Shown: positions 3,659-50,594 of the stretch, piece by piece
Numbering within the stretch: the first letter of the stretch is position 1
Layout of the letters: each line of letters starts with the position of its first letter
Assembly (NCBI GenBank): GCA_020846135.1
Contig: JADLEK010000036.1
Location: 1-64,000, forward strand
DNA from: Gammaproteobacteria bacterium
GTDB lineage: Bacteria > Pseudomonadota > Gammaproteobacteria > Competibacterales > Competibacteraceae
DNA length: 64,000 bases
Direction of reading: 5' to 3'
Position numbers and translations under genes: made by a program
Notes under the pieces: generated by a model
Seen by the model: only the letters and a program-made list of their open reading frames with translations
Told to the model about the DNA's origin: nothing
Databases searched by the model: none

Positions 3659-3688
3659 TTCAGCCCTCACGCGCTTGCGAGTTTCGCC

Positions 3689-8130: not shown

Positions 8131-8146
8131 CAGGGCTTTCGCTTTT

Positions 8147-9185: not shown

Positions 9186-9295
9186 CAGGCACTGAATCGG
9201 CTCAGTCCAGCGGAGCCATTCCGCTGGCGCTTAATTTAGTCATCAAGATTCAGTCATCAACAATTCCCGCTATTTCAGTCCTGCCAGGCTGTGTC

Positions 9296-10564: not shown

Positions 10565-10582
10565 AGACCTGAGGCAGCAAAA

Positions 10583-10879: not shown

Positions 10880-10899
10880 TCCGCTACGTCTTCCAGTAA

Positions 10900-10913
10900 G
10901 TAGGCCGGCCTAC
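10900..10913. repeat. 14-bp perfect palindrome GTAGGCCGGCCTAC
   Basis: This short palindrome stands between the converging PHA-system and FFLEELY-type genes. Its GTAGGCCGG half is the same as the start of the larger palindromic element at 16.0 kb. It may be a minimal copy of that element. Confidence 0.5.
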
Positions 10914-10918
10914 CTGTT

Positions 10919-11683
10919 CTAACGCCCAATTGAAGGTTGGTCAGAGTAATAGCCCGCTGCGTCTTCCAGATGCAGCGGGTGCGGATGACCCGACGCGATC
11001 CGCTCCAGAATGGCGCGTTCACGTTCAGTGATCGTGGTCACGAAGGTTCCCGCCTCAGCGCCCAAGTGATGGAAAGCGCGGAATCCCGCGTCCAGAAACC
11101 GGTGCAACTCTCCAACTCCGGCCAGTCGCGCCGGGCCTTTCGCCATTTTCAGCGCCGTGTGAATGAAGCGTTTAGGGACAATTCGCTGCAAATCCCGCCC
11201 AAGTTTTTCCACCAGATCAATCTGATGCCGGCGTTGCTCATAGTCGCCATCGACGCGATAGGCGGCAATATAGGTGGCCTCGTCCAATTCGTCGCCAAAC
11301 CCGAATTCCGCCATCAGCCGCCGCGTCAGCCGGGCATCCAGTTCATGGGACAAAGCATTCAGCTCCAGCGCCAGCGCGGTGGTATACAGCACCGGTTCTG
11401 GCAGGACGCGGGCCATAATCGGAACCACGCGGGCCAGATCCTGCTCGCGCTGCCGGAAGTCCCGATCGCCGTACAGCTCATCGAGAAAGAACTCGGCGGC
11501 GGGTCGGTAGCGCGGGTTATGCAGCACATCGGCGTGGGTTCGAGCCAGTCGCGTTGACTGCCAACGCCGCAATCGGCTGAGTTCGTACTCGATGTCGGCA
11601 ACGCCTTCGTTGTGCAACGCCTGACTGCGCTGCAATTGCGCCAGCAGATGGGCGGCGCCAGGGGTGTGGTGGATAGAAGTCAT
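10919..11683 (-). CDS. FFLEELY-motif helical protein of unknown function
   Basis: This roughly 254-aa, mostly helical protein carries FFLDELYGDRDF about a quarter of the way in, the signature of the so-called FFLEELY family found in proteobacteria, whose function is not known. No signal peptide or membrane segment is visible. I place the start at the ATG at 11683 (MTSIHHTPG); an ATG at 11707 is also possible, and neither has a strong ribosome binding site. It is convergent with the PHA-system gene and divergent from the IS remnant. Confidence 0.7.
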   Translation of the reverse strand: MTSIHHTPGAAHLLAQLQRSQALHNEGVADIEYELSRLRRWQSTRLARTHADVLHNPRYRPAAEFFLDELYGDRDFRQREQDLARVVPIMARVLPEPVLYTTALALELNALSHELDARLTRRLMAEFGFGDELDEATYIAAYRVDGDYEQRRHQIDLVEKLGRDLQRIVPKRFIHTALKMAKGPARLAGVGELHRFLDAGFRAFHHLGAEAGTFVTTITERERAILERIASGHPHPLHLEDAAGYYSDQPSIGR

Positions 11684-11840
11684 GCAGAAATGACGGTTGA
11701 ATCCCATTGATGAACACAGATGAACACGGATAGATCTCCATTATTAAACCTGATTAGCAAGATACTTCAGCCGGCCCTGCTTGGTGCCGAAAAACAGGCG
11801 TAAGCTGGCGCAGCTTTCATTCTGGAATCAGGTCATACCG

Positions 11841-12636
11841 ATGAATCGCCTCCAATTTCAACCCGGTTTGTCGCTGCCGGCATTTCTGGAGCAGTTTGGG
11901 ACTGAGACCCAGTGCGAAGCGGGGCTGGAAAGCGCCCGCTGGCCGGAGGGGTTTCGCTGCCCCCACCATGGGGAGGTGGATCATTATGTGCTGCGTAAGC
12001 GAGGGCGTAAGACCTTTCAGTGCCAACCCTGCCGGACGCAGACCACCCTGATCGCGGGGAGCGTCTTCCAGAGCGCTCATCTGGCGCTCACTCTGTGGTT
12101 TTTAGCCATCTATCTGATCAGCCAGGCGAAAACCGGGTTATCGACGCTGGCCCTGAAACGCTACTTAGGCGTCAGCTATCCGATGGCCTGGCTGATTCAG
12201 CACAAACTCATGCAGACCATGACCGAGCGCGATGCTCACCCTATGCGGCGAGGTGCTGGTCGATGATGCCTACCTGGGCGGTGAACGGGTGGGCGGCAAA
12301 GCCGGGCGGGGTTCCGAAAACTAAGGTGCCGTTTGTCGTTGCGGTTTCTCTTAATTCCGAGGGGCATCCGCTCTACACCCAAATGATCCCCGTCCCAGGA
12401 TTTACCTGCGCGACCCTCTGACCGACTGGGCCAAAGCCGCCCTGGCCCCGGGCAGCCTAGTCCTTGCCGATGGGTTGGCCTGCTTTACCGGGGTGATAGC
12501 GGCGGGGTGTAGCCACCAGGCCCTCATCATCGGCCTGCGCAAACCCAATGAGGTTCCCGAGTTCGGTTGGGTCAATACGATTCTAGGCAATCTCAAAACC
12601 AGCTTCAGCGGGGCTTACCACTCCTTTTCGGTATGA
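11841..12636 (+). pseudogene. Decayed IS1595-family (ISXO2-like) transposase
   Basis: The N-terminal part (11841 to about 12240) has the zinc-ribbon form CPHH...QC.PCR.QTTLIAGSVF typical of IS1595 transposases. The gene then changes frame three times: a segment with VDDAYLGGE (12241-12324, ending in TAA), a segment with KVPFVVAVSLN (12323-12421, ending in TGA), and a segment with LADGLACF and FGWVNTILGNLKTSFSGAYH (12412-12636). The usual last 30 or so residues after YH.F are missing. It cannot make a full transposase. I did not find clear terminal inverted repeats, so the element's edges are unknown. Confidence 0.88.
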
Positions 12637-12692
12637 GCGATGGGGAAATAACCGCTCTTGGAACCAGTCACCCGGCGCAATTTTCCGACCCA

Positions 12693-14705
12693 TCAATCCG
12701 GCATTCCCAACCCCAACCGGCGAATCCGCTGAATCTCATCGCGCAGTTTCGCCGCTTCCTCGAATTCCAGATCGCGGGCATGGCGGTGCATGGCCTGCTC
12801 CAGTTGCTTGATCTTTTTCGCCAGCGCCGCCGGTGATTCGCGGGCATAGGCCACGGTTTCTTCAGCCACCAGCGCGGCTTCGGCCATCGCTTCGGGATAT
12901 GCGCCTTCCAGAATATCGGCCACCGCTTTTTGAATGCCGCGCGGGGTAATCCCATGAGTCTGATTGAACTCCCGCTGCTTGGTGCGACGGCGGTCGGTTT
13001 CCTCCAAAGCTCGGCGCATGGAACCGGTGATCCGGTCGGCATATAAAATCGCCTTGCCGCGCAAATGGCGGGCGGCCCGGCCAATAGTCTGAATCAGCGA
13101 CCGGTCCGAGCGCAGAAAGCCTTCCTTGTCAGCGTCGAGAATGGCGACCAGTGACACTTCCGGTAAATCTAGCCCCTCCCGCAGCAGATTAATTCCAACC
13201 AGCACATCAAATTTTCCCAGCCGCAGATCGCGAATAATTTCGACCCGCTCCACCGTATCAATATCAGCGTGCAGATAGCGCACCTTGACCCCGTTTTCCG
13301 CCAGATAACCGGTTAAATCTTCGGCCATCCGTTTGGTCAGGGTCGTCACCAGCACCCGCTCCCGCCGTTCGACCCGATCACGGATTTCGCCGAGTAAATC
13401 ATCGACCTGATGCAACGCCGGACGCACCTCGGTTTCCGGATCGACCAGTCCGGTCGGGCGCACCACCTGTTCCACTACCGCCTCGCCGGAGCGTTCCAGC
13501 TCAAAGGGACCGGGCGTCGCGGAAATAAAAATGGTCTGGCCACTGAGTCGTTCAAACTCGTCAAAACGCAATGGCCGGTTATCCAGCGCACACGGCAGCC
13601 GGAAACCGTATTCAACCAGCGTCTCCTTGCGCGAACGGTCGCCTTTGTACATCGCGCCCAGTTGCGGAACCGTCACATGGCTTTCGTCAATAAAAATCAG
13701 CGCATCCTGCGGCAGATAATCAAACAGGGTCGGTGGCGCTTCGCCGGGTTCGCGTCCGGACAGATAACGGGAATAGTTTTCGATGCCGCTGCAATAACCC
13801 AGCTCCAGAATCATTTCGAGATCAAAACGGGTGCGCTGCTCCAGGCGTTGCGCCTCCAGCAATTTACCGGCGGCATGGAGATCATTCAGCCGATCCCGCA
13901 ATTCATCCTTGATCAACTCGACGGCTTTCATCAACTGTTCGCGGGGCGTGGCGTAATGAGTTTTGGGATAGACGGTATAACGGGGAACCTTGCGCGATAC
14001 CTTGCCGGTGAGTGGATCAAACAGGCTCAGCGATTCAATCTCATCGTCGAATAATTCCACCCGCAGCGCCTCTTGATTCGACTCGGCGGGATAAATATCA
14101 AGGATCTCGCCCCGCACCCGGAACGTCCCTCGCGCCAGCTCCAAATCATTGCGGGTATATTGCAGATCCGCCAGTCGGCGGAGCATGGCGCGTTGATCCA
14201 CTTTCTCGCCGCGCACCAGATGCAGCAGCATTTTCATATACCAGTTCGGATCGCCCAGCCCGTAAATCGCCGACACGGTCGCGATAATAATGGTATCGGG
14301 CCGCTCCAGGATCGCCTTGGTCGCCGACAGCCGCATCTGCTCAATATGCTCGTTAATCGAGGCGTCCTTTTCGATATAAGTATCGGACGATGGCACATAG
14401 GCTTCGGGCTGGTAATAGTCGTAATAGGAAACAAAATACTCCACCGCGTTATCGGGAAAAAACTCCTTCATTTCGCCATAGAGTTGCGCGGCCAGGGTTT
14501 TATTCGGAGCCAACACCAGCGCCGGACGCTGCACCGCAGCGATGACATTGGCGACGGCGAAGGTTTTGCCGCTGCCGGTGACGCCCAGCAGGGTTTGATG
14601 CGCCAGCCCGTGGCTCAGTCCGGCAACGAGGGCGCGAATCGCCTCCGGCTGATCGCCGGCGGGCTGGAAACGGGAATGGAGGGTGAAGGGTTGGGTCGTC
14701 AGCAT
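12693..14705 (-). CDS. uvrB: Excinuclease ABC subunit UvrB
   Basis: This 670-aa DNA-repair helicase-like subunit loads UvrC at lesions found by UvrA. It has Walker A GVTGSGKT near the N-terminus, the beta-hairpin [19 protein letters not shown], the FISATPG segment and the QTIGRAARH motif VI. A C-terminal UVR coiled-coil domain follows ([18 protein letters not shown]). I chose the ATG at 14705 ([11 protein letters not shown]), where family homology starts; the frame stays open to 14978 but that part overlaps the divergent aminotransferase. The length is normal and the motifs are intact. Confidence 0.96.
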
Positions 14706-14805
14706 GGAATTTTGGCCGGGGCGGGAATTTTCAGTATTATCCGACCGATTCATCAACCCGTTGTTCATCCCGTGCCTTCCACTAGAACCATCCCCAGGAG
14801 TCCCC

Positions 14806-15987
14806 GTGACCACTCCGCTTTCTGAACGTGTACAGCGCATCAAGCCCTCCCCCACCTTGGCCGTCACCGCCAAGGCCAACGAACTCAAAGCCGCCGGCAA
14901 GGACGTGATCGGTCTGGGCGCGGGCGAGCCGGATTTCGACACCCCGGATTTCATCAAGGAAGCGGCGATCAAGGCCATTCAATCCGGCTTCACCAAGTAC
15001 ACTCCGGTCGACGGCACTGCCGGCCTGAAGAAAGCAATCATCGCCAAGTTCCAGCGCGACAACGGCTTAAGTTACGAACCCAAGCAGATTCTGGTGTCCT
15101 GCGGCGGCAAGCAGAGCTTCTACAACCTGGCGCAGGCGCTGCTGAACGCAGGCGACGAGGTGATCATTCCCGCCCCGTACTGGGTATCGTATCCCGACAT
15201 GGTCCTGCTGGCTGACGGCGCTCCGGTCATTGTCGCCGCCGGCATTGAGCAGCAGTTCAAGATCACCCCGACGCAACTGGAAGCGGCCATCACTCCCCGC
15301 ACCAAACTGGTGGTGATCAACAGCCCGTCCAACCCGACCGGGGTGGCCTACAGCGCTGCGGAATTGGCCGGGCTGGGCGAGGTGCTGCGCCGCCATCCGC
15401 AGGTCTACATCGCCACCGACGATATTTACGAACATATCCTATGGGCCGAAGAGAAGTTCCATAATCTCCTCAACGTCTGCCCGGACTTGTACGACCGCAC
15501 TATCGTGTTGAACGGCGTCTCCAAGGCCTATTCGATGACCGGCTGGCGGATTGGCTACTGCGGCGGGCCGAAAGACCTGATCAACGCCATGACCAACATC
15601 CAGTCGCAAAGCACCTCGAACCCGACCTCGATTTCCCAGGTCGCGGCGGAAGCCGGATTAAATGGCGATCAATCCTTCGTGGCGATGATGACCCAGGCAT
15701 TTCGGGAGCGGCACGACGTCGTTTACAAGACGCTGAAGGCGATGCCTGGCGTCGAAGTGGCTCCGGCGGACGGAGCGTTCTACATTTTCCCGAACTTTCA
15801 GCAGGCGATGAACCGGCTGGGGCTGGCCAATGACATCGCCTTTGCCGAGCGGCTGCTCAATGAAGTCGGGGTTGCGGTCGTACCCGGATCGGCGTTCGGC
15901 GCGGAAGGCTGCGCCCGGATTTCCTTCGCCACCAGCATGGATAATTTGACCAAAGCGCTGGAGCGGATTGGCCGGGTCATCGGCTAA
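14806..15987 (+). CDS. Pyridoxal-phosphate aspartate aminotransferase (class I, subgroup Ib)
   Basis: This 393-aa enzyme probably transfers the amino group between aspartate and 2-oxoglutarate. Signatures include [12 protein letters not shown] near the N-terminus, NSPSNPTG in the cofactor site, DDIYEH, and [13 protein letters not shown] with the Schiff-base lysine. The start is GTG at 14806, with AGGAG 6 bases before it. It is divergent from uvrB with 100 bases between starts. Some members of the subgroup also act on prephenate; this cannot be told from sequence alone. Confidence 0.92.
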
Positions 15988-16019
15988 GAAACTGTATTAG
16001 CGGCTTTTGCCGGCAAGGG

Positions 16020-16104
16020 GTAGGCCGGATAAGCGTAGCGCATCCGGCATCTCGGCATCTCGGCGTCTCGCCAGATGCGGCGCGATGCGCCTTATCCGAC
16101 CTAC
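16020..16104. repeat. REP-like palindromic element (GTAGGCCGGATAAGCG type)
   Basis: The left arm GTAGGCCGGATAAGCG pairs imperfectly with the right arm CGCCTTATCCGACCTAC across about 50 bases, with a CATC...GATGCG inner pair and a small tandem CTCGG(C/T)(A/G)TCT stretch in between. It sits between two converging genes, the usual place for REP elements. It resembles enterobacterial REP sequences in motif but no REP transposase gene was seen nearby. Confidence 0.75.
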
Positions 16105-16128
16105 CTATATGGGTCGATTCAGTCCGGT

Positions 16129-35465: not shown

Positions 35466-36896
35466 TCAGTCCCATAACTCGCGGGGATAATCGCGGTACA
35501 GATTCCGAAACGCCTGCTGATACTGCCGGTCGGCAACGACGATCCGGGCCAGTTCCCAGGGGCGCGTGAGGTGGCGCTGCACCCGCAATGGATGCCGCCG
35601 GCCGGCCTCAGCGATCTGGCGGGCGAATAATCCGCCAAACTCGCGCAAGGGCAAGGCAGTCGGCGTCAGCGGGTGCATACAGTCATGCAACTCGTAGGCG
35701 TCGCCGCACCAGAATCCGGGCCGCACCGCAGCATAATCAGCGGTGCCGGGCGAGGGGGTGCAGACCGTGAAGCTGCATTGCGCCGGCGGCATGGCGTTGA
35801 CGTAATCGCGCAGGCGCGCAAATTCAGCGTGACCGTATTCCGGGCGGATCATAAAAGCGGCATGGCAGGCAATTCCCAATTGGCGCAAGGTCTCATGGGC
35901 GCGTTCGTTATGCGCTACTGTGCCGCCTTTACACGCCGCTTTCAATTCCTGATTGGTGGCGAATTCAAAGCCAACAAAAACTCCATCCAGACCGATCTCC
36001 CGCCAGCGCCGCAGCAGTTCCGGCGAATGCAGTACGGTGGTCGCCCGGGTCCAGGCGAAATAGCGTTTTTTCACCCCGCGCCGCGCCAGAGCTTCCGCCA
36101 GTTCAAAGCCATAAGCCTCGTCGATGAAGTTCTCATCGTCGGAAAAATAGACATGATCGGCCTGGATCCGCGCCAGTTCCTCGGCCACGACTTCGGCGGG
36201 ACGCGGCTGATGAACGCCGCCGCACAGCAGTGGCACGATGCAGAACGAGCAGACCATTTTGCAGCCGTAGGAGGTGCGGGCCATCGCCACCGGGGGAAAC
36301 AGAACTTGCCAGTGGCGGGGATTTTCGCAGGCCCAGATGCAGGAATAGGCGCGGGCATTCCACAGATCGCGCCGGGGCAACGGCAAGGTTTCCGGGTCAG
36401 GATAGCGCGGCCATTCCGCCGCCGCCGCCGGGTCATAGCGGTCGCCGGCGAACAGCAGATGGGAAATGCCTTCCGGTTCTGCGCCTTTGGTCAGCGCTGC
36501 AATCAGGGCGCGGAACGGGGAGCAGCCTTCGCCACGCACGATGTAGTCAAGCGCCGGGATATTGCAATCATCCGGGGCCACCGTGGCGTGATGGCCGCCA
36601 ACCACGATCCGCGTTTTCGGCAGTAATCGCCGGACCAGTCCCGCCAGCCGCTTGAGGTGGCCCGATTCGTGGCTGTAGGCGGTAAATCCAACCAGATCAG
36701 GTTGAAAATGACCGAGTTCCCGTTTCAGCGTCCAGTCGGGAAAGCGGTGCAGCCGCAAATCCAGGACCCGCACTTCATGACCGGCGGGAACTACGGCGGC
36801 CAGATAGCCCAGTTCCAGCGGTTCCAGACATTGGAAGCCTTGCAACGCGAGTACGGTCGGCAAGGTCGCTTTGGGTTTAATCAGCAGAATACGCAT
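35466..36896 (-). CDS. B12-binding-domain radical SAM protein
   Basis: This 476-aa protein has an N-terminal cobalamin-binding fold (about residues 1-140; GLTAYSHE-like region and VVGGHHAT) and then a radical SAM core. The core carries CKMVCSFC, a CX3CX2C cluster motif. Downstream come YFSDDENF and GLDGVFVGFEF, typical of SAM-radical methylase-like enzymes. The ATG at 36896 has AAGGA seven bases upstream. The substrate cannot be told; family members methylate or rearrange lipids, bacteriochlorins and natural products. It stands alone, next to the defence-like island. Confidence 0.85.
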   Translation of the reverse strand: MRILLIKPKATLPTVLALQGFQCLEPLELGYLAAVVPAGHEVRVLDLRLHRFPDWTLKRELGHFQPDLVGFTAYSHESGHLKRLAGLVRRLLPKTRIVVGGHHATVAPDDCNIPALDYIVRGEGCSPFRALIAALTKGAEPEGISHLLFAGDRYDPAAAAEWPRYPDPETLPLPRRDLWNARAYSCIWACENPRHWQVLFPPVAMARTSYGCKMVCSFCIVPLLCGGVHQPRPAEVVAEELARIQADHVYFSDDENFIDEAYGFELAEALARRGVKKRYFAWTRATTVLHSPELLRRWREIGLDGVFVGFEFATNQELKAACKGGTVAHNERAHETLRQLGIACHAAFMIRPEYGHAEFARLRDYVNAMPPAQCSFTVCTPSPGTADYAAVRPGFWCGDAYELHDCMHPLTPTALPLREFGGLFARQIAEAGRRHPLRVQRHLTRPWELARIVVADRQYQQAFRNLYRDYPRELWD

Positions 36897-37069
36897 GAAG
36901 GGGTCCTTATCTTTCACCATTCATTCGGATCAGCAAGCCTGTCGAACCGTCGAAATAATCCAGGAAGGGGAAATTTTAACCACTGAGGACTCTTTTGCAA
37001 ATAACCCATGCGTCTACTAAATTGCAAGTGTTTGTATTTCAAGATTAATGCAATTAAGTTTTGATTAGG

Positions 37070-37284: not shown

Positions 37285-40200
37285 TCAGTTTACTCTGGAA
37301 GATAACAGTAAATCACGCCGGTTCTTCCATAGCCGGCGGGCCAGTTCAAAGGTATCCACAGTTGAGATATTCGATCCCAACTCATTCAAGGCGTCTTTAA
37401 GAATTCCAAACGGTTGATCAACATCCCATAGTGGGTGAACGATGAGTACCCAGGAATGGCGTGGGGATAGCCGAAAAGCTGACAATCCCGAATCCAAGAC
37501 GCGGCTTTCTGATTCATCACCCAAGTGCGCCATAGCGACGGCATAGTGATTGGCAAGCAACAACCAATCAGTCAGTGCTGGACTAGCGTTGAATCGGCCA
37601 TCAAGGCCACAAACAAAGGTTGCATCCAGACATTGATGGAGAAAGGTCAAACCGAGTCGCCAATCCAACAGACCATGCCAAGCACGATTGCCGTATCGCT
37701 GCAAGCAGCGATAACAGGCTTGATCGCAGCTTGCAGCATGATCAGCCAATAGAAAATCAGCAAGTGGATAACAGTCGTGGTCATAAACAATGGAGTGAAT
37801 AATCCCGACAATGAGTGGTTGTCCGATTGAATTTGATTGCGCTAATCGTTCGCAGAATCCAGCGCCGTTCACCAGTTGATCTGCAATTTGTAGCATGGGA
37901 ACTTCATCGCCTTGCGGATTGCGAGTACGACGTGGTTCCAGAACATCGAGTTCTTCCGGGTCAATGTCGAGTTCCAGCGCCGCACGCTGGGCTAATAGAA
38001 AAGCTGCAGAAATAGCGGCCGCCCGAACGGAAAGAATCCCATTTTTACCCACATGATGAATCCGTGATCCCAAGGGACGATGCACCGGGGCAACAAATAG
38101 CGAATCCGTAGTCTTGCGTGCTGCCAACCAGAATGATCCAGTTGGAGGCGAGATCTCAACCCGCTTGCCTAAATAAGCAAAACGAGGATCATCAGCGACA
38201 TACTGGTTAAGTAAATAAACCTGATTTGGCCGATGACGATCCCGATTGGGCAAAGAGCAAGGAATTCGCCGTTCACTGACCTGAAATCCCCTAAAAGCTC
38301 CCTCTTGGTCTAATACGCCTCGATTCAACTGGAAAATCTGGGAACGAGGTTTGAGATGAAAAGCAAGATTACTATCGCTGATCGCGGCCAATACGACTTC
38401 ACAACCTTCTGCAGCAACGGTGCGATGACGACCGGACAGCAGTTCGTCTTCGCCCACCGAATTTGGTTTGAAATCCGTGCGAAATGCACTGGGGGTGCGG
38501 CATTCGTGAATGGCGAGCATGGGTATTTCATGGCGACAGGCTTGACATTCAGAATCTTGCGTCGCTTGCGTCATCACGCGCCAAGCCCCACAATAGTCGC
38601 ATTCCGCCATGTAGAAAGTATCTGAGAACGGCTCAGGGTCTTGCGGTTTGGAGTCGTGGGGTTTGATTTCCCGATTATTGGGAATGCGGTAAATATCCGG
38701 TAGGGAGCCGGTAAAACCGACGCAAAGATGTCGGCGTTTATCGCGCACCAGAGTTGCGCCAGGGGCAAATTCGTAAATCGCCAGTTCGATGTCCCGATCC
38801 AGCGTGTCCCACGTCCATCCAGGTTGTTCGCCTAATTTTCGTAGTGATCCCAAGTAAAGGTTACGCACTCGAGTAGGCATTCCGTACATCGGTAATAAGC
38901 CCGCTTCAGCGAGCAGATGCGCCAATCCATGTTCAGACAACAGGGAGCGATCAATGCCTTGCATGTCCTGCAACAATGAGTCAATCGAAAGATCGCTGAT
39001 TAGTTTTTGAACCGATATATCTGAATCAGCACCCAGATTAACGGCGATCGCGTCCCGATAGACAATCCGGGCCTGAAGCGCTTGCCGTAAGCGATTTTTC
39101 CAGACGTCATCCTGAAAATAGGTGGTGGATAGTAGAAATTCGCCGTGAATATCTGGCGGATTAATATCGTCGCCCGGATAGGATTCTCCACGGCTTTGAC
39201 ATTCAGTTCGCAAATCCGCAAATGCCGCACAAAGCCACGCCTTGCGTAAAAACCGCTGGGCAATAGTGTCCTGGTTTTTGGTCAAAAATGGCGGTGGTGG
39301 TGCATCGCCGGTAATCCGTTCGGGATGACGGAAATAATGCAGGTCGTGACTTCGACCCCGGCAGACGGTGAGTACGGCGGAATAAGCTTGCCGCCGCCGA
39401 CCCGCGCGACCGACCCGTTGCTGATAATTGAAACGCTGGGGCGGCATATTGCCTTGATAAACTGCTTGCAGTGGACCAATATCGATGCCTACTTCCATGG
39501 TCGTGGTGACTGACAACATATCGACCAACCGGGCGCGGCGATACAGCGCATCGTTGCTCTGTTCCGAAAGCACGATGCCCCGGAACAATCGCAAGCGTTC
39601 AGCGCCATCGTGGGTTTGGCCGGTCAATTCCTCGCAACGCAACCGGAACGGTTCATGCTCATCATGTCGTTCAATTCGTTTGGCAAAGTGGTGGCTTTGA
39701 CGTAATTCGGCGGCAGAGCTATTGGCGATTTTGGGCAGGGATTTATAACAGCGAGTGCAATAACCAGCCCCATAATGCAGATGAACACGCCCACAACCTT
39801 CGCAACGCCAGGCACCAGCGTTTAGATCAACCAAGCGGAGACGGACGTTGGGAATCGAAATCAAACCATTGGCATGACCTGTTGCTTTGAAGGCTTGAAG
39901 AACTTCGTTGAGACGTTGATTCAATTCGTTTTGTGGCCACACCTTTTGGGCAAATTGATAAACTCGATGGCTTTTAGAAATGTCCTTGGCTTCATTCCAC
40001 GGTTTTTTGTCATTATTGGGATCAGCCCAACGATCATAGTCATGATAAAGACGATAGCCGTCGCTGAATACCCGCAGAAATGCGTCGAGAATACCCATCC
40101 GCCCATTCCAACCTGGTGTGCCGGCCAAGCAGGGATAAGCGAGTCCGGTTTCTTCCAGTGAAAAATAAGTTCGGCTGAAAATAGTTTGCACCAGAGAAAT

Positions 40201-43200
40201 GAGGATATTGGTAATAACCTCAGTACGCGCTTCATTCAGATCTTTTTGCTCGTCGCCGCTCGAATCGCGCCAATCGATGATGCCATTGATTTCATCGAAC
40301 AAGTTGTACCATGAGAAACCCTTGATTTCAGCGACACCGGCTGGATCTGAAGGGTGTAAGCCGATCCGCACAAACTCCCGGATTAATTGTGGCAGGACCA
40401 TGCGGTTTTCAGCCCGCCCCATATAGTTCGGTTCGGAAGGATCGCCGACCAGATCACGAATGGCAATGGAGTCATCGCCTGATGAGCCAGCAATTTTCAG
40501 GCGTTGATTGATGATATTCAATTCGTTTTCGAGGTTATCGTCAGAAACATCCGCTAATGCGTAAATCGCTCTTTTCCGCGCCATAAGCGCTGCCCGATCG
40601 ATACGCGGTATTGCCCGTAATGCCTTAATCAGCAATTCGCGTCGGGTGTCATCATGGTGGCGGCTTTCAATATCCAGAGCAGCACGGGCGGCATCCTGGC
40701 GACTGTCAGAAAAAGCGACGATTTTTGGATCGGCGCGATCAAGACGGAGCAGGTCAAAGAGTTCGGTAGCTAATAACTGACTGGTTTTGGCAAAACCGGT
40801 GCGGAAACTGCGAATAGGCGAAAGTAAAAAATCCCGCCGGCGTTTGGAATAGTCGGTATTGCAAGCCGGACACGCATAAGGAACAGCAGTGCCATTAGCG
40901 GCATTCGTGCGTTTATGGCGATCTTCAACCCCAGTAGCGCGTATGTAGAGATAACCAGAAAGCCAACCATCCAGGTTTGCCCTGGCTTTCGCATTGATTC
41001 CCACTTTACTCAATTGAATGAGTGCATGGGTCGGATTCAACCAGGCCGGACGCCAATCATCAGGTTCCACTTTGAACGGAGTTGGTGTTTCTGTTCTGGT
41101 CGGTATCCAGAATAAGGCATATCGGTCGTGAGACAGGTTCTCAAACATCTGCAAAGTTGCAGTGTCGGGTAATCCCTCCAGTTCCGGGTCTGCCGGTGAT
41201 AATTCAATACCTTTTTCAATATCATCGCCGCTGCGCATTCCACCAAAAAACAGTTCGCCACAGCACTCACAACGAAGCAATTCCAGTAGCCGTCGCGGTT
41301 GACCCGTACTGGCGTCATGGCTCTGTCCTGGTTCAATATGCAGGGGACCGGCGTAACGGCGGCGATCAATCGCAATCTCTGCTGAATGTTCCTGGGGAAT
41401 GAGCGGCGCGAATAATCCTTCCAGGCCACGAAAGAACAGGTGCAGTCGGAAAGTTGGTAAATCCGCCGCTGATTGGAGCCATGACCATGGCAATCCGTCA
41501 GTCATGCCTCGAATAATCAGCAATCCACGCAGCGCCAGTAGGGCAGTGTCATTGGGTTGACTAAACAGCCGCTTGGCCAGCACCGTCAATGGTGTTGCCC
41601 GCACCCGGCCATCGGTTTCTGACCAACAAGCGTCAGCTAACCGCCAGGCGGCTTCAGTGACGGCTTCATTAACGAGGACAGGCAACTCAATAGAGCGACT
41701 GTCCGGCAGCAAGGCCCGATGGACAGCCCGCCACTCTTCAATCAAGTCGCTGGGGTGGCGATACCGGGCCGGATGTTCGGGTGAGCCGTCCCAAAATACC
41801 TGAAGAGCATGAATAAACGGCGCTGTATCCAGTGGATGATGGTTTTCTGGAGTGAGATGAATGGTTACGCCGGGGATAATGGCGTCGCGCCACTGGCTCT
41901 TCTCGGTAAACCCGACATGACCGGGTTGTCGGTGTGTACCCATGCGCCCGAACATATCCCACAGATAAGTCAAACTGTCCTCACCTTCAGTGCCTTCAGT
42001 AGGTAAAGAAGCGCTGGAGGCCAGAATCCGCAGCTTGTGGCGATGTTCATGGGCTTGCAATCCCAATCGCTCAATCAGCAGGCGCAGCAAATAGCAAACT
42101 TCAGTGCCGGACGAGCCGCGTTGGAGGTGCAATTCATCAAGAATCAGGAAAAAGTAGGCGTCCTCATGCGTAGTCAACCAGTGCCGGGTTTGATCAAAAA
42201 TCGGCCCGTCAACTTCACGGGCCAGCATGGCGTTCAACATCGAGATATTGGTGATGAGGATGTCCGGTGGCGTCGCCTGCATGTCCCACCGTGAGCAAAG
42301 TTCGCTTCCGTCAACCGAAGGGAATAGATAACAGATTTCGTCTTCCATGCTGAAATCGGGTTTTTCATCGCGGGATTGTTGATCCTGGCGACGGGCCGCT
42401 TCTTGAGTCTTCTGGAATTCCGTGAATGCTTTAAAAAGTTCTTCTTGTTTGCGTTTCTGGCGTTCGCGTTCCTTTTTTTCATTCTGTGGACGGGGGTGTT
42501 CGAGAAAGCTGGTAACTGGCGTGGCGCTGGTATAGCGACCGAAGAACAGGCGGTTGCCTTTAAAATGTCGGTTCAGGGTGTCGCGGGCCTGGTCTGAATC
42601 CAGCGCCCGCCGCAAGCGAACCAGTTGATCCTCAACCAAGGCGTTCATTGGATAGAGAATTAAGGCGCGTACTGCGGCTGGACGTTTTTCACCTTGGCGA
42701 TGTGGTCGAAACGGTTGCAGGCTTTTCGCATTTTTGAGTGCTGACCAGGATTCGTAAGGTTGCCCGGTTTCATCCTGCCACCAGCGTCGCCCCAAATAAT
42801 TCTTGGCTGGCGCTGACCATTGAATGGCTTCTTGCGATAGGCAGGCGAATACTGGCAATAGAAAAGCTTCGGTTTTACCGGAACCCGTGCCTGACGTTAC
42901 AACGCCGGGCTGGCCGTTACGAACTCCATGCGCCAGCATTTCGGCCTGATGCGTATAAAGCGGGTATTTAGCCTGGAAGCGGCAATCTGACTGATATGTA
43001 GCAAGTTCACTTTCAAACAGCCCTGATAATGTTAATTCGGCAAAAGCCTGACGCGCCTTGACGGGCATATTGCCAAGTGGGTCATCAGGGGTATTTAGTT
43101 CAGCAAGAGTATGTAGATAATGACTACTCGCTTGATAGCGTGGCACTGGTTCCAGTAAAGGATCGGTGCAGATTGCATTATTTTTTTCAAGTAAATTCCG

Positions 43201-43302
43201 ACGTTCTTTAGTGATTATCGGGTCGCGGATTCGGAAAGCAGTATCCAGATAATCCAGAAATAGGGTTCTGATGCGTAGAAAACCACCGATGGGATCCAAC
43301 AT
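37285..43302 (-). CDS. Very large DEAD/DEAH helicase with C-terminal DUF1998/MZB-like zinc region (DruE-like)
   Basis: This 2005-aa superfamily 2 helicase has Walker A TSGTGSGKTEAF at residues 136-147, then LILYPMNALVEDQ near 214. A charged insertion (about 275-315) precedes DELH at 389-392 and ASSASL near 428. The second RecA lobe shows VAFSDSRQDAARAALD, then TTTMEVGIDIGPL and QQRVGRAGRR. A CDYC...CQAC pair and a CDQACYRC cluster near the C-terminus match the four-cysteine DUF1998/MZB type. This size and layout are those of DruE, the hallmark of Druantia anti-phage systems, though other defence helicases share the parts. It is the last of three genes with 51 bases to the next; the ATG at 43302 is fine. 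Confidence 0.85.
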   Translation of the reverse strand: MLDPIGGFLRIRTLFLDYLDTAFRIRDPIITKERRNLLEKNNAICTDPLLEPVPRYQASSHYLHTLAELNTPDDPLGNMPVKARQAFAELTLSGLFESELATYQSDCRFQAKYPLYTHQAEMLAHGVRNGQPGVVTSGTGSGKTEAFLLPVFACLSQEAIQWSAPAKNYLGRRWWQDETGQPYESWSALKNAKSLQPFRPHRQGEKRPAAVRALILYPMNALVEDQLVRLRRALDSDQARDTLNRHFKGNRLFFGRYTSATPVTSFLEHPRPQNEKKERERQKRKQEELFKAFTEFQKTQEAARRQDQQSRDEKPDFSMEDEICYLFPSVDGSELCSRWDMQATPPDILITNISMLNAMLAREVDGPIFDQTRHWLTTHEDAYFFLILDELHLQRGSSGTEVCYLLRLLIERLGLQAHEHRHKLRILASSASLPTEGTEGEDSLTYLWDMFGRMGTHRQPGHVGFTEKSQWRDAIIPGVTIHLTPENHHPLDTAPFIHALQVFWDGSPEHPARYRHPSDLIEEWRAVHRALLPDSRSIELPVLVNEAVTEAAWRLADACWSETDGRVRATPLTVLAKRLFSQPNDTALLALRGLLIIRGMTDGLPWSWLQSAADLPTFRLHLFFRGLEGLFAPLIPQEHSAEIAIDRRRYAGPLHIEPGQSHDASTGQPRRLLELLRCECCGELFFGGMRSGDDIEKGIELSPADPELEGLPDTATLQMFENLSHDRYALFWIPTRTETPTPFKVEPDDWRPAWLNPTHALIQLSKVGINAKARANLDGWLSGYLYIRATGVEDRHKRTNAANGTAVPYACPACNTDYSKRRRDFLLSPIRSFRTGFAKTSQLLATELFDLLRLDRADPKIVAFSDSRQDAARAALDIESRHHDDTRRELLIKALRAIPRIDRAALMARKRAIYALADVSDDNLENELNIINQRLKIAGSSGDDSIAIRDLVGDPSEPNYMGRAENRMVLPQLIREFVRIGLHPSDPAGVAEIKGFSWYNLFDEINGIIDWRDSSGDEQKDLNEARTEVITNILISLVQTIFSRTYFSLEETGLAYPCLAGTPGWNGRMGILDAFLRVFSDGYRLYHDYDRWADPNNDKKPWNEAKDISKSHRVYQFAQKVWPQNELNQRLNEVLQAFKATGHANGLISIPNVRLRLVDLNAGAWRCEGCGRVHLHYGAGYCTRCYKSLPKIANSSAAELRQSHHFAKRIERHDEHEPFRLRCEELTGQTHDGAERLRLFRGIVLSEQSNDALYRRARLVDMLSVTTTMEVGIDIGPLQAVYQGNMPPQRFNYQQRVGRAGRRRQAYSAVLTVCRGRSHDLHYFRHPERITGDAPPPPFLTKNQDTIAQRFLRKAWLCAAFADLRTECQSRGESYPGDDINPPDIHGEFLLSTTYFQDDVWKNRLRQALQARIVYRDAIAVNLGADSDISVQKLISDLSIDSLLQDMQGIDRSLLSEHGLAHLLAEAGLLPMYGMPTRVRNLYLGSLRKLGEQPGWTWDTLDRDIELAIYEFAPGATLVRDKRRHLCVGFTGSLPDIYRIPNNREIKPHDSKPQDPEPFSDTFYMAECDYCGAWRVMTQATQDSECQACRHEIPMLAIHECRTPSAFRTDFKPNSVGEDELLSGRHRTVAAEGCEVVLAAISDSNLAFHLKPRSQIFQLNRGVLDQEGAFRGFQVSERRIPCSLPNRDRHRPNQVYLLNQYVADDPRFAYLGKRVEISPPTGSFWLAARKTTDSLFVAPVHRPLGSRIHHVGKNGILSVRAAAISAAFLLAQRAALELDIDPEELDVLEPRRTRNPQGDEVPMLQIADQLVNGAGFCERLAQSNSIGQPLIVGIIHSIVYDHDCYPLADFLLADHAASCDQACYRCLQRYGNRAWHGLLDWRLGLTFLHQCLDATFVCGLDGRFNASPALTDWLLLANHYAVAMAHLGDESESRVLDSGLSAFRLSPRHSWVLIVHPLWDVDQPFGILKDALNELGSNISTVDTFELARRLWKNRRDLLLSSRVN

Positions 43303-43353
43303 GATGCCATTCCTTGTTTAATGGGGGATAGTTTGTAGCAGACAGCGACGGTT

Positions 43354-45825
43354 TCAGACGGATTTCAGCAAATATTGCTGGATAATTTTAAGCGCATCAT
43401 CCTGAGATTGATCAAGAGCGCATAAGGCAGCAAAAACGCGCAGGGCGGCTTCCTGTTTTGCTTTATCAGGCTGTTGATCTTTGGGAAGGGAAGTGATGGC
43501 ATTAGCCATAAAGCTGACATCTTGGTTCTGGGCTTTTGCCCGCCATTCGTTCCATTGCTTGACGGTAATTTCCCCAGCCAATTTACGCGCGTTTTGGTCT
43601 ATCCATGCCGGATGAATATCCAGATGTTTTCCTTGAGATTCCGCATTGACTTCAATGAGTTGTCCTTGCATTGCACCAGAAATCTGGAAGCCATCAGCAA
43701 GACCGCTAATCGTTGCTGTCAGTAATAAATTAGGTGGCCATCCCAATACATCATCAGCCAAGCTTTGCTGCTCCCATACATGATGTTGTGTCCATAATTT
43801 TTCGAGATGCCGGGATAAGAAAGCATCACCAGGTACGTCCAACAACCCGCGTCCATACCAATCCAGTAGAGTGTCTAAAAAATACTGACTCGGCGCTCGA
43901 TCTAAACCGCCTAATACCAGAAAAAATAGTACCTCACGATGGGTGGCCGCATACAGAATAGCGGTATCAAGAATACCTGAATTTGATGGGCTATCTGATT
44001 GACCGATAGTGAACAGGCGTTCTATGCTGATGATTTCTGGGGATAGTGGTAAATCAAAGCAACGACCAAAAGTCAAATGATTGGTCAATACATTTAGCGC
44101 CCGACGCAATGCATGACCTTTGAAAACTGGGATATGACCCGATAGAGAAATGGCGAGTGTCCAAGCAGCGAGTGATTTGTCAAGGTCAACTCTTTCCAGA
44201 TGACTACAATATTTGGTAATTAGGGCTTCGATATTTTTAAAAAAGGCACCTTTCTTTATTTCAAAGACTGGCATATTGCTGGATGACTGTATGGATGAAG
44301 TTGATTCTAATAGTCGCTGTTTCTTACCAAAAATAAGTTGTAAAAATGCATCATTTGCTAATGCTTCTGCTAACATACTGGTTGGTTCTACTGCAAGTCG
44401 GTCAAGACAATTATTTAGGGATTGCTCAAATTTTTCTAATGTCTGATTCATACCAATACGTTGAAATTCAAGACTTGTCTCGAGCTTAGTAAACTCGTTT
44501 TTGGTGTCTAAAATTTTGTCATCTAAACAAATTTTTTCAAGTTTTTTTGATTCAATTTCTGCTTCATTATTAATAATAATTTGACCTAAATTTTCGATTT
44601 TTTTCTCCATGTTTTCAATTTGGAGTTCTAAATCGGTTTTTTGCTCAAAAATCTGGGAAATTTCTTGCTCAATCTGCTTTTTTATTATAGCAAGTTCTAT
44701 CTCAGTTTGTTTTTTAGCTTCAGCATATTCTTGCTCAAGCAGTTCCAGATTTTGGCGGCGAATTTCAGTAAGATCCTTTGTAAGGTGTACCTCAATATTG
44801 GCTTTTTCCTGACATAAATCAGAAAGTTTTTTTTCAGCTTGCGCCACGATATTAGTTTCTTGCACAGCTTCTTTATTTATCGTATTAAACATATTTTTGA
44901 GGCCATCCATATTCATGATGGTTTTTGCAATAATTTCTATATCACGTTTTTGTGCTAATTTTAGATCTTTAAGTTCTTTTAGACGATGGCGACAAGCCTT
45001 ATTTTTATTACGTTCAATGATAATGTCTTTTTCAGGCAAGTTAGAGTAATCGACTTGTTCTAAATACTGATAAAAATTTTGCAAATTTAGATCAAATATT
45101 TTGAATGATTTATGATCAATTTTTCGCAAAATATCGGTCAATCCACTAAAAAATAAATCATCTGGTTGCCAATTTCGGTAGTCAATGATCTCACCAAAGT
45201 CTTCGTTTGGATCGATGAAAAAACGTCCTCTAAGAATTTTTGGTATTATTCTTAGGTCAGACGGAATACGGTAAACTGGTATAGCTTTTAAATACGAATC
45301 ATCAACTATCATACAAAGACGATTATTATGTTGATTTGTTATAAACTCTAGTGGGCCAAGCCATGAGTAATCATTAATAGAAACAAAAACTTGAGAGTTA
45401 CAAAAAGGTTTAGATGGTAAACCTTCTTTTATTAAATCTGACCTTATTTTAGACTCATTTTCCGTCGAATTTGTAGCTTTCATCTCAAAAAGTTCACATA
45501 CAGAATGAGCGGATGAGACAACGAATTTTCTATTCTGTTTCGATCCAGCTTTTGTTGTTGAAAGACTAGGACGAAAATCTTCGTTTTCAGAAATACTGAA
45601 TTTTAATACTTGGCCTTCTAAAATTTGATCTGGAATATTTGACCACCAAACATCCAGCTTAATTTGAAACATTTCGTTTAATTCTTTTTGTTCAATATTA
45701 TGCCAAAACCAGTTACCGTTTTCAATACTCCATTTCATAAGTGGTGTAATTAGAGCTGTGCTATCAGCTTGGTTTTCACAATGAACTGTCTTAACAATTC
45801 CGATATAAGAATTTTCTTCCGACAT
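43354..45825 (-). CDS. Coiled-coil protein of the helicase operon, function unknown (823 aa)
   Basis: I do not recognise a catalytic motif. Residues about 1-280 form a mixed globular domain. Residues about 285-470 are a long charged coiled coil rich in Glu, Lys, Gln and Ile. Residues about 540-740 form a helical domain with PVFKGHALRRALNVL and EVLFFLVLGGLDRA, followed by an Asp/Gln-rich end. The N-terminal and coiled-coil parts are clearly AT-rich compared with the surrounding genes, while the C-terminal third is nearer the host average. It lies 28 bases after the 968-aa gene and 51 before the helicase. The layout suggests a structural partner of the helicase. Confidence 0.75.
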   Translation of the reverse strand: MSEENSYIGIVKTVHCENQADSTALITPLMKWSIENGNWFWHNIEQKELNEMFQIKLDVWWSNIPDQILEGQVLKFSISENEDFRPSLSTTKAGSKQNRKFVVSSAHSVCELFEMKATNSTENESKIRSDLIKEGLPSKPFCNSQVFVSINDYSWLGPLEFITNQHNNRLCMIVDDSYLKAIPVYRIPSDLRIIPKILRGRFFIDPNEDFGEIIDYRNWQPDDLFFSGLTDILRKIDHKSFKIFDLNLQNFYQYLEQVDYSNLPEKDIIIERNKNKACRHRLKELKDLKLAQKRDIEIIAKTIMNMDGLKNMFNTINKEAVQETNIVAQAEKKLSDLCQEKANIEVHLTKDLTEIRRQNLELLEQEYAEAKKQTEIELAIIKKQIEQEISQIFEQKTDLELQIENMEKKIENLGQIIINNEAEIESKKLEKICLDDKILDTKNEFTKLETSLEFQRIGMNQTLEKFEQSLNNCLDRLAVEPTSMLAEALANDAFLQLIFGKKQRLLESTSSIQSSSNMPVFEIKKGAFFKNIEALITKYCSHLERVDLDKSLAAWTLAISLSGHIPVFKGHALRRALNVLTNHLTFGRCFDLPLSPEIISIERLFTIGQSDSPSNSGILDTAILYAATHREVLFFLVLGGLDRAPSQYFLDTLLDWYGRGLLDVPGDAFLSRHLEKLWTQHHVWEQQSLADDVLGWPPNLLLTATISGLADGFQISGAMQGQLIEVNAESQGKHLDIHPAWIDQNARKLAGEITVKQWNEWRAKAQNQDVSFMANAITSLPKDQQPDKAKQEAALRVFAALCALDQSQDDALKIIQQYLLKSV

Positions 45826-45853
45826 GATATGTTCCTTTAGTTAAGCGCGTTTA

Positions 45854-48760
45854 CTAAGGCTTGATAAATTTCGAGTACAATGGCAACAAATTTACAGAAA
45901 TAGGAATTGCTAACCTGCTATCACTTATTGGTAAAGCCGAGCATGGTTCACCGGGTAACCGCGCAAACGCTAACGCCTGTAACCACTCAGGAATCTGCGG
46001 CTTTTGCTGATCCCGATGTACCCAACCCAACAACTGAGTGTTTACCCATTGAACTTGAGGATATTCAAACAGTGGGTAGCAATAAGTCATGCTGCCATCC
46101 GCATTTCTGACTGGCCCTGGCGCACTACCAGACAACGCAAAGGCTAACCGTCCAACCACAATTGGCAAGTGAATCCCACCCGCCACTGACCGTATTAAAC
46201 CCTTGCCCGGTTGATACAAATAGGTTTCCCGCCCCAGGAAATGAGCGCCTGCCAGCAAACCCCACACTCGCGAATAACTCCACAACATTTGTCCATCTTC
46301 CGCACGCGCTACAAAATAGTCGCGCCGGTCGCCTCGTTCCCGGCGATGCCAAAACACGCCGGGCTTATCCATAACCGGATTAGCATCAGTCAATTTCTGA
46401 AAATAGCCGCGTTCCCAATTCCAGATCGCATGACATGAGTAATTGCCCGAAGGATCATCATTGTGCAGGGTTTGGTTTAATGGAGCCAGGGTATCGACCA
46501 GAGAACGGGCGACGACTATCTCCAAACGATGGCTTCTGGCAAAGCCGTGCAATGCCTCGGCAGTAGTTGCCGTTAAAATCAATCCCGGCGGCAACCAAGG
46601 CGAAATACTCGTCACCCATTGCGCTTCAATTCTCCAATTCTTTGCCGTATTGGTCAGATAATCACCGGGTACTGTCGGGATTAGCCCAACAACCACACCA
46701 CGCCAGATTTTATCCGCTGTCCGGGATACGCACAGACGCGGAATTTGCGGCAGATAACGCACGGAGCGCCAATGACGGTCACTGACTCGTTGCAATAGAC
46801 CGGTCTCAGTCCAAGCGCGAGCAATGTCCCAGATCAGACGGTAATCTTTCTCGCCGATGTGCAAAAAACGCCGCAATAAATCAAGAAACTCCATTTCCGC
46901 TAAGCCCAGCGTTCGAGTGTTGCCAATCACCGCCAGCGCTTCGATAAAATCGCCTAGTGCTGTGCGACGCCAAGCCGGGTCAGCTTTACTGGTAGGCAAT
47001 GGCGCAGTGGTTTCGATGCAATACTCTGGCTCCCACTCCGCACCAATATCCCAAAGCGGACGATCATCCGCCGCTAGAGAAGCAGTATCTCGTTGCCCTG
47101 CTTCGATTTCCCAAGCAGTGGGATCGGAAGGTATTCCATAGTCCCAAGTTACCACATCCCGTTGAAAACGAATGCGGCGGGCGCTGATTCGTATTCCTGC
47201 CCGATTCTCCGCGATAACCTCAAATTCGCCCTCAAGTCCAGCCCGCGTTTCAGGGCTATCCAACAATCGCCAGCCCGTATTATCCTGATACAGCGGCAGT
47301 ATTTTTACGTTAGCGGGAGTCGTTGATAAGCTATTCAGTCGCAGTCGCTGACTGCCCTCCAACCGGAACTCTGGCAAAGCTCCGAATCGGCTTAAATAAT
47401 GGCCTTCCTTAAAACGAATCCCATCATGGATGCCGATAACAGCCGACCGAACGACTTTCTCCAGACAGCGAACGCCGGGTAATGGGGGGATTTTCTGGCT
47501 ATTCAAGCCATCAACCCAAAACCAGGCCGTATTAGGGTATGGTTTCAGTGGATATGTTTCTGCCAATGAACCGAGCGCATTTACGAAGAGATTTTTAAGG
47601 TCTTGGCGAATTAAGATGGTAGTAGAGCCGGACTGAGGCGGGCGAGTTGTGGCGACACAATAGCCATCCTGCTTTTGAAAAATTAGTAATCCGTCCTGAA
47701 CCACTTCTAATAGAGAACAACGAATATCTGAGCGGGACAAGCTACCTCTCAGCAGGCGACGCACCGGTTCTCCAGAATCCTCGTCAGCCATCAATAGGCG
47801 GCCATAACCAGCAATTTCAAAGTCCAAATTCTGACTATCAATTCCAACCCAAGGTAAATAGATTTTGCCTAACAGAGATAAAACGGGTTCGTTTAATTCG
47901 TCAAATTCCATCAGCAGAAGCAAGTCAACTGTTTTGTGCTTAGCCGTGGTGACGCTTTGATTCTGAACCGTTCGCCATACACCAAGGACTGCTGACCAAA
48001 ACGGATGCGCGGTGGTTTCTTGTCCAGACCTTCTCAGGCGATAAAAATCGTCAAATTCCTGCTGAAATGCCGATCCAAAGCTCCATCGATGGCTTGTAAC
48101 TATTTGGAGTACTGAGTTAGGAGGTGGTTCATCGATCCATTTTTTCTTATCTACTTGGCGGAGAAATTCAGCAAGTTTTTCTTGATCTTGGCGTGATGGA
48201 AACGCCAGCCGTTTGGAATAGCCAATGCGTACTTCAATACCAGGATTAGGTAAAATTAACTCACGCCAAGGGCGGTATTGACAGCGCCCTGCTATAATCA
48301 GTTCTGTCAATTTTTTCCAAATTCGGCCCAATCCATCGAACGGCAAAGGACTATCACCTTGCATCCCTAACAATTCATACAAGCGAATTGGAAACTGGCC
48401 TGCCTCAGCATCTTCCTCGCTGGCTGCTGCAACCAAACACGTTAGGATCAAATAAGGGAAGAAATCGTGCAGAGGAAGTTGATACCAAATGACTTGGCTG
48501 GAAAGATGGTGGTTTAGTTCACGACGTGTTCTAGGAAATCGACTTAGAAAGACTTGCCGGATTTTATCTGGTGGGGTGCTAGCATCCCCAGTTACTGCCG
48601 ACCAAGTTGCATCAGTGATCACCAGTCGGGTGACGGGGGTGTCCTCATCTTCATACTCAAAGAAATGGCGGAAGAGAGCCTCGCTCCACTGGCGTAGCGT
48701 CCAAAGCCGCCACGAAGACGGGTTATCAGGCGGTGGAGCAGTTTTTGAGGGGATTTCCAT
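45854..48760 (-). CDS. First gene of the helicase operon, 968-aa protein of unknown function
   Basis: I do not recognise this protein. The N-terminal 250 residues contain ITDATWSAVTGD and then LPLHDFFPYLILTCLVAAASEE, followed by PIRLYELLGM and LGRIWKKLTELI. The rest is a mix of beta-rich and helical segments without P-loop, nuclease or methylase motifs that I can see. Near residue 540-560 the WDYGIPSDPTAWEI region and several Trp-rich stretches stand out. The ATG at 48760 is chosen; a TTG at 48784 is in frame, and neither has a strong ribosome site. Its position matches an accessory subunit of a Druantia-like system (DruF or DruG in type II), an assignment not tested. Confidence 0.7.
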   Translation of the reverse strand: MEIPSKTAPPPDNPSSWRLWTLRQWSEALFRHFFEYEDEDTPVTRLVITDATWSAVTGDASTPPDKIRQVFLSRFPRTRRELNHHLSSQVIWYQLPLHDFFPYLILTCLVAAASEEDAEAGQFPIRLYELLGMQGDSPLPFDGLGRIWKKLTELIIAGRCQYRPWRELILPNPGIEVRIGYSKRLAFPSRQDQEKLAEFLRQVDKKKWIDEPPPNSVLQIVTSHRWSFGSAFQQEFDDFYRLRRSGQETTAHPFWSAVLGVWRTVQNQSVTTAKHKTVDLLLLMEFDELNEPVLSLLGKIYLPWVGIDSQNLDFEIAGYGRLLMADEDSGEPVRRLLRGSLSRSDIRCSLLEVVQDGLLIFQKQDGYCVATTRPPQSGSTTILIRQDLKNLFVNALGSLAETYPLKPYPNTAWFWVDGLNSQKIPPLPGVRCLEKVVRSAVIGIHDGIRFKEGHYLSRFGALPEFRLEGSQRLRLNSLSTTPANVKILPLYQDNTGWRLLDSPETRAGLEGEFEVIAENRAGIRISARRIRFQRDVVTWDYGIPSDPTAWEIEAGQRDTASLAADDRPLWDIGAEWEPEYCIETTAPLPTSKADPAWRRTALGDFIEALAVIGNTRTLGLAEMEFLDLLRRFLHIGEKDYRLIWDIARAWTETGLLQRVSDRHWRSVRYLPQIPRLCVSRTADKIWRGVVVGLIPTVPGDYLTNTAKNWRIEAQWVTSISPWLPPGLILTATTAEALHGFARSHRLEIVVARSLVDTLAPLNQTLHNDDPSGNYSCHAIWNWERGYFQKLTDANPVMDKPGVFWHRRERGDRRDYFVARAEDGQMLWSYSRVWGLLAGAHFLGRETYLYQPGKGLIRSVAGGIHLPIVVGRLAFALSGSAPGPVRNADGSMTYCYPLFEYPQVQWVNTQLLGWVHRDQQKPQIPEWLQALAFARLPGEPCSALPISDSRLAIPISVNLLPLYSKFIKP

Positions 48761-48939
48761 GGGTTGTGCAATAGCGATCCACAATTTTGAGGCACAATGG
48801 CACTAAAGTTAGCTTTGTCACTTCTTCAAAGCATGGACCAAAATTACACTATCTGCAAGGATCGTTTGCATCAACTCATATCCGACGTGGAACTACCTAC
48901 AGTCGTGCCATGCTAACGATAGATAAAATAGTATCAAAA

Positions 48940-49257: not shown

Positions 49258-49281
49258 TTATACCTATTCTGAATAGGTTTT

Positions 49282-49351
49282 CGTCATACCCGCGAATGCG
49301 GGAATCCAGGCAACCGCTAAAAACTGGATACCCGCTTTCGCGGGTATGACG
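49282..49351. repeat. Palindromic element of the CGTCATACCCGC family next to the Uma2 remnant
   Basis: A left half CGTCATACCCGCGAATGCGGGAATCCAG pattern and a right half CTGGATACCCGCTTTCGCGGGTATGACG form two nested hairpins of about 70 bases. It is nearly the same as the element at 25885-25955. It marks the broken N-terminal side of the Uma2 gene. Confidence 0.88.
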
Positions 49352-49469
49352 AACAGGGTGGTTTTTGGCCTTTGAAAAGGACAAAACCTATCGGGAAACG
49401 GTATTAAAACTAGGGTTCACCACAAACAACCACGACATCGGGTGATGAATTTTTCAGCAGGTTGTGACT

Positions 49470-50594
49470 TTACCAAAAAGCTCTTTTAAAATCATTTCTG
49501 AAATTGCGAAACCCTCGCTTGAAAGCGTTTCCTTCTGGTGGTGGTGGATTCCTGGCGGTTTGATCACGATTTGTCGATACTGCATTTTTGCGTGGCCGGT
49601 TATTCTTAGTCGATGAATTTTGAGTTGTCACAGTGGCGGTTTTTTGTGGTTCGAGACTCAGCACCATATTTAGATCGGCATCCAAAATTGTGACGTTCTT
49701 GCGTATGGTTTGATAGCCGGGATACGCGACTTCGATTTGATAGACTCCAGTCCCGAGTTTCATCCCGGGTTGATAAAGTTTTTTCAGATTCAGGATACTG
49801 ATCCGGGCTTGAGGCGGCTCGACTTCAATCGTCAGCGTATAGAGCCTCTTTTCAAGACTGACCAGTAAGTTCACATCATTATCACCCAGCGTTGCATTGA
49901 CTTTTTGCGTGACATAACTGGGGTGGCTAACTTCAACTTCATAAATTCCGGAAGCCAACCGGATTCCCGCCTGATAGGGTTGACTGACATTCAGCAACTG
50001 GACAGTGGCGCCGACTGGCTCCGTCTTCACGGTCAGGGAACGCAAGGGTGGATGAGCAGGTTGCGTGATCGTGGCGGGGGCGGTAGTAATTGACATCGCC
50101 AGTTGATCCAGCTTGACCTGCACTGCATCGATATCCTGAGCCTGAATCTCGCCGCTGCGGGCGACAGTGCCAGTTCGGGTGTCGATCAACCGCGCTGTGA
50201 CCATAACCCGATCCCCGAGTTTGCTAACGGTACCGGTCACTACGCCATGAATTCCATAGATCGTTCCCAACTGGATGGCCGTTTCAGAGTCTACCGGGCC
50301 AATTGAACCCAGTGGATTTTTTTTAGCCAGTTTCGCGATGGCGTTTAAAGAGATTCGATCCTTGAGTGCAAAATTTCCCATGTTGGCAATCGCCGAAGTC
50401 AGGGAATCGGCAATAATGGCCCCGGCATGTGGATCAAGGCTATTGCCTCTGACTGCAAATTCAATAACAGCAATAGTTTTTTTGGATCGCGGCAACTCGG
50501 CAGCCGAAGCCCGCCCAGTCAGGCTACCGCCAACCATCAGAGCGATCATTAAAACTATCGCGCTCATCTTTTTTAGAAAATCCAGTCGTTGCAT
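49470..50594 (-). CDS. Exported TolB-like protein with two PEGA domains
   Basis: This 374-aa protein has a signal peptide (residues about 8-32), then a TolB/CsgG-like N-terminal domain with KTIAVIEFAVRGN and IYGIHGVVTGTVSKLGDRV, which often senses or assembles surface structures. Two PEGA beta-sandwich domains follow, each with V-L-N--QPYQ-G--L-SG-YEVEV--P-Y pattern (about 185-255 and 256-325). The tail is basic and Asn-rich (RGFRNFRNDFKRAF). It may bind an envelope polymer; the partner is unknown. It stands alone between the island and the aryl-polyene-like genes. Confidence 0.82.
   Translation of the reverse strand: MQRLDFLKKMSAIVLMIALMVGGSLTGRASAAELPRSKKTIAVIEFAVRGNSLDPHAGAIIADSLTSAIANMGNFALKDRISLNAIAKLAKKNPLGSIGPVDSETAIQLGTIYGIHGVVTGTVSKLGDRVMVTARLIDTRTGTVARSGEIQAQDIDAVQVKLDQLAMSITTAPATITQPAHPPLRSLTVKTEPVGATVQLLNVSQPYQAGIRLASGIYEVEVSHPSYVTQKVNATLGDNDVNLLVSLEKRLYTLTIEVEPPQARISILNLKKLYQPGMKLGTGVYQIEVAYPGYQTIRKNVTILDADLNMVLSLEPQKTATVTTQNSSTKNNRPRKNAVSTNRDQTARNPPPPEGNAFKRGFRNFRNDFKRAFW

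Follow-up and report, generated by a model that had tools for sequence, protein, structure and literature searches.

Among the Druantia types, type II is the one that a methylase defines; it comprises DruM, DruF, DruG, and DruE (PMC8565338, PMC10273834), and PADLOC treats DruM as requisite for it (PMC8565338). Types I and II have been described as CoCoNuT-like, with an inactivated, McrB-like CnuB carrying a coiled coil as the partner protein, and the C-terminal Vsr-like nuclease of their DruE as inactive (PMC12458937). In type III (DruH-DruE), which has no methylase, DruE is a helicase-nuclease that engages ssDNA-containing intermediates and DruH is the likely sensor (PMC13192584). Type IV as modeled in PADLOC (DruF-DruL-DruE) does not require DruM either. 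Our literature search found no paper showing what DruM does in type II systems. A natural three-gene type II locus devoid of DruM would offer a ready test of whether this protein marks self DNA, joins in defence, or is dispensable.

A candidate for such a locus lies in the window analyzed here, a stretch of 64,000 nucleotides (positions 1 to 64,000 of contig JADLEK010000036.1) from a gammaproteobacterium of the Competibacteraceae. With a probability of roughly 0.8, we read it as a Druantia type II core (DruF-DruG-DruE; type IV CoCoNuT) that was gained by horizontal transfer and has no DruM in the locus. Three closely spaced ORFs on the minus strand span positions 37285-48784, flanked as follows:

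35466-36920, radical-SAM/B12 gene, one flank of the druFGE island
37285-43302, minus strand, druE, 2005 aa
43354-45825, minus strand, druG, 823 aa
45854-48784, minus strand, druF, 976 aa from a TTG start or 968 aa from the ATG at 48760
49470-50594, PEGA/FlgO-like gene, the other flank

The gaps of 28 and 51 bases reported in a preliminary description of this DNA are as stated there, and the 968-aa length it gave for the first product corresponds to the ATG start. No internal stop interrupts druF, druG, or druE, which together keep about 3,800 codons open. Purine-rich Shine-Dalgarno-like stretches precede the start codons of druG (AAAGGAACATATC-ATG) and druE (AAGGAATGGCATC-ATG), and no fourth operon gene lies between the flanking genes. 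An uninterrupted operon of 11.5 kb, with full-length matches to defence-protein profiles, excludes a chance arrangement.

The wider neighbourhood is mostly housekeeping (flagellar genes, RelA/SpoT, guanylate kinase, an acyl-synthase cluster, Pta, GidB, ParA, and ParB), and no further defence genes were recognised in the flanks scanned. GC3 is 0.48 in druE, 0.29 in druG, and 0.46 in druF, against 0.69-0.79 in most neighbours, the exceptions being the PEGA gene (0.50) and one flagellar gene (0.56). These low values point to acquisition of druFGE from elsewhere. Neither boundary direct repeats nor a tRNA target were found at the island, and three congeners, in which the order of the flanking genes is rearranged, provided no clean empty site. 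A REP-like inverted repeat with 30-nt arms (TTCGTCATACCCGCGAATGCGGGAATCCAG) occupies window positions 49280-49353, in the interval that separates the island from the PEGA gene. The radical-SAM/B12 flank gene, intact here, is broken up in congener G003 (L076:11595-12416).

The helicase matches the PADLOC DruE2 model end to end (2056.7 bits, residues 1-1993), far ahead of the DruE4 (1270 bits), DruE1 (508 bits), and DruE3 (159-256 bits) models of the same library. In a search against models of other defence systems, the helicases of Dpd, BREX, and DISARM were rejected as candidates, with DpdJ at 65.8, BrxH at 39.6, and DrmA at 32.8 bits, all below 70, against 2056.7 for DruE2. Pfam recognises DEAD and Helicase_C domains, and the product has the features of a YprA-family SF2 helicase, with zinc-cysteine clusters, an MZB-like region, and a C-terminal extension. 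Its motifs are intact (GTGSGKT at 138-144, DELH at 389, SSAS at 429, QRVGRAGR at 1295), and the protein also has seven CxxC pairs; the preliminary description placed cysteine clusters toward the C terminus. Aligned end to end, it shares 40-45% identity with eight plasmid-borne type II DruE proteins. In a tree that also holds type IV sequences, the helicase falls within the type II clade with 100/100 support. Its initial identification as DruE holds. The nearest DruE by tree path, about 46-48% identical, belongs to an IMG/VR locus, L087 (IMGVR_UViG_3300037046_000297). A solved homologue exists in PDB 9WAE ('Helicase', 1970 aa; 1400 bits over residues 1-1992) and six related entries, which cover DruE at full length and have no DruF or DruG counterparts found in the PDB; the literature search returned no publication naming 9WAE. 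A six-sequence profile did not recover the Vsr relationship of the DruE C terminus.

The 976-aa protein is, on profile evidence, DruF. PADLOC DruF2 models match only its N-terminal ~260 aa (1.5e-30). A profile of eight plasmid DruFs, taken from loci with the DruF-DruG-DruE order, aligns over residues 30-925 (profile positions 5-823 of 858) at E=6.9e-77, with an hhalign probability of 100%. For small comparisons of this kind, all HMMER E-values given here refer to a search space of 10,000 sequences. L087, a complete type II locus, has a DruF that is 28.7% identical over 952 aa. No motifs were found in DruF and no relatives of DruF or DruG in the PDB, and a DruF model run across 385 genomes of another class returned a single match, at a contig edge.

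The 823-aa protein has no significant match in PADLOC (including the DruG2 model), Pfam, or NCBIfam, no tblastn relative among plasmids, and none in the genome collection. These negative results, with no curated library naming the protein, would favor the earlier suggestion of a possible novel partner set that makes the locus a new Druantia subtype. We now consider this suggestion very improbable, as family profiles identify both proteins. A profile of eight DruGs detects the 823-aa sequence at E=5.1e-8, and the same profile with the L087 DruG added does so at E=4.7e-16; hhalign gives a global probability of 99.0% over residues 2-823, and direct phmmer comparison with the L087 DruG gives E=9.2e-9. 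Scored separately, the N-terminal part reaches 44.0 and the C-terminal part 59.9, whereas 60 shuffles of each peak at ~21, so the match holds at both ends as well as across the length. Failure of tblastn is normal for this family: searched against 72,556 plasmids, a PADLOC-recognised DruG (that of L039) retrieves no sequence but its own, and it is no surprise that the models miss the 823-aa protein. Single-sequence DruG or DruE seeds found no relatives in 84,980 species genomes because such seeds are too divergent, and the DruG2 model returned only weak matches at coiled-coil level across 399 genomes of the phylum.

By these comparisons, the middle gene encodes a very divergent DruG that is colinear with the family over its whole length, even though its identity to other DruGs in the alignment is only about 15-18%. 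It comprises an N-terminal domain, a long coiled coil (approximately residues 270-490, judged by eye), and a C-terminal region that aligns to DruG and lacks a Walker A motif. Such motifs are absent from all ten DruG proteins. A PDB search with the DruG alignment retrieved only coiled-coil and unrelated chains and did not recover the McrB relationship; single-sequence structure prediction of the C terminus reached a pLDDT of 41 and was not used. In the comparison with type IV CoCoNuTs, which have an inactivated McrB-like GTPase with a coiled coil, the coiled coil and DruG homology are seen here, and the McrB link is taken from PMC12458937. Fast evolution of DruG makes current models overlook the protein, so the number of type II systems is probably underestimated, or some are recorded as incomplete. 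GC3 of druG stays at or below 0.36 over the first 600 codons, next to 0.48 and 0.46 in its operon neighbours, and AT-richness of this kind was not seen in four other druG genes examined. This gene may have moved by modular exchange.

Set against the described systems, the locus shares most with type II, and most closely with L087. There, a complete methylase-DruF-DruG-DruE set occupies positions 3134-16108 of a 67-kb IMG/VR contig classed as viral. Both loci have DruF, DruG, and DruE in this order on one strand with short gaps, in keeping with the initial remark on a type II-like order, and DruE identity to type II proteins including that of L087 is 40-48% end to end. The present locus differs in having no adjoining C5-methyltransferase, an unusually AT-rich druG, and a divergent DruG. 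Type III also pairs a large YprA-family DruE with no methylase, but it has DruH, which is missing here, and the DruE3 models score poorly against our helicase. Type IV resembles the locus in its DruE and DruF homologues; however, its third protein is DruL instead of DruG, DruF is a single full-length gene here, and our DruE (2057 bits for DruE2 versus 1270 for DruE4) groups outside the type IV sequences. A DruL was tried and rejected for both partners, since neither has a DruL4 match, hhalign of our DruF and its parts to a DruL alignment gave at most 0.9% probability, and the middle gene matches DruG. The locus is type II by its parts, order, and phylogeny; under a strict definition that includes DruM, a C5-cytosine methyltransferase, one defining feature is missing. 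It is a modest, DruM-less variant of type II, neither a new system nor a subtype with new partners.

Across related loci, DruL proteins match the C-terminal end of PADLOC DruF2 models (L033:7459-8463, the partner genes of L040-L043, and L085). In L085, the N-terminal half of a 1024-aa product (7932-11006) matches DruF models, and its final ~170 residues match DruL4 models. The DruL of type IV systems thus resembles a C-terminal portion of DruF, and type IV may be a type II that has no DruG and in which DruF is split.

The absence of DruM, as stated in the preliminary description, extends beyond the operon. The contig carries no C5-methyltransferase (PF00145), and the two copies in this 99.9% complete genome are on contigs 60 and 64. 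Such an absence is exceptional. All ten related loci (nine plasmid loci with DruE identities of ~39% or more, among them Rubrobacter L036, plus L087) have a C5-methyltransferase no more than 10 kb from druE; it is mostly upstream, but L037 has it downstream and L038 on the opposite strand. Since PADLOC regards DruM as requisite, the locus may lack an essential part and be non-functional. In one reading, the type II system is decaying, having lost DruM, and its other genes have ceased to act in defence; the variation in gene order around the locus between congeners also speaks for this. We judge decay unlikely, as all three ORFs remain open over ~3,800 codons, druE keeps its motifs with no stop over 2005 codons, and a methylase is not part of types I, III, and IV as they function or have been described.

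DruM has either been lost from the locus or is supplied in trans. The methylase on contig 64 scores 518 bits with the PADLOC DruM2 model PDLC00028, above every other family in the library, and shares 45% identity along its length with DruM of an Agrobacterium type II locus. This DruM-like C5-methyltransferase might protect the chromosome from the druFGE system, the more so as DruMs of type II loci are highly diverse (mostly 24-53% identity), as if recruited from unrelated restriction-modification systems. Yet, on a contig other than that of druFGE, it adjoins a GIY-YIG nuclease-like gene and looks more simply like the methylase of a restriction-modification pair of its own, and nothing connects it to the Druantia locus, so we regard protection in trans as an improbable arrangement. 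The dissimilarity among DruMs also suggests that DruM may not be inherited as part of the core but recruited and exchanged from locus to locus.

The DruM-less type II core would be expected, from its homologies, to act in anti-phage defence. By analogy with type III, DruE would work as a DNA helicase or translocase on phage DNA intermediates with exposed single strands, and DruF and DruG might detect infection and either assemble DruE or control it. If DruG follows its described homologues, it would combine a coiled coil with a McrB-like nucleotidase domain that is dead (PMC12458937). With DruM missing, self DNA could be spared through DNA structure and an infection trigger, with no methyl mark made in cis, or alternatively be marked by a host methylase encoded elsewhere. 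The boldest reading, which we put at somewhat less than even odds, is a DruFGE that works without any cognate methylase, in which DruM would be an accessory add-on and discrimination between self and nonself would come from DruF/DruG sensing and DNA structure rather than from a methyl mark.

No vsr-type nuclease gene was recognised near the druFGE operon. Separate genes of this type recur near DruE2 or type II loci (L035, L036, L038, L039, L048, and L084), consistent with C5-methylation in those systems. In L036, a plasmid locus of Rubrobacter marinus, DruF is split into two ORFs (5833-8989), DruG is not recognisable, and an adjoining methylase and a vsr-type nuclease lie upstream of DruE.
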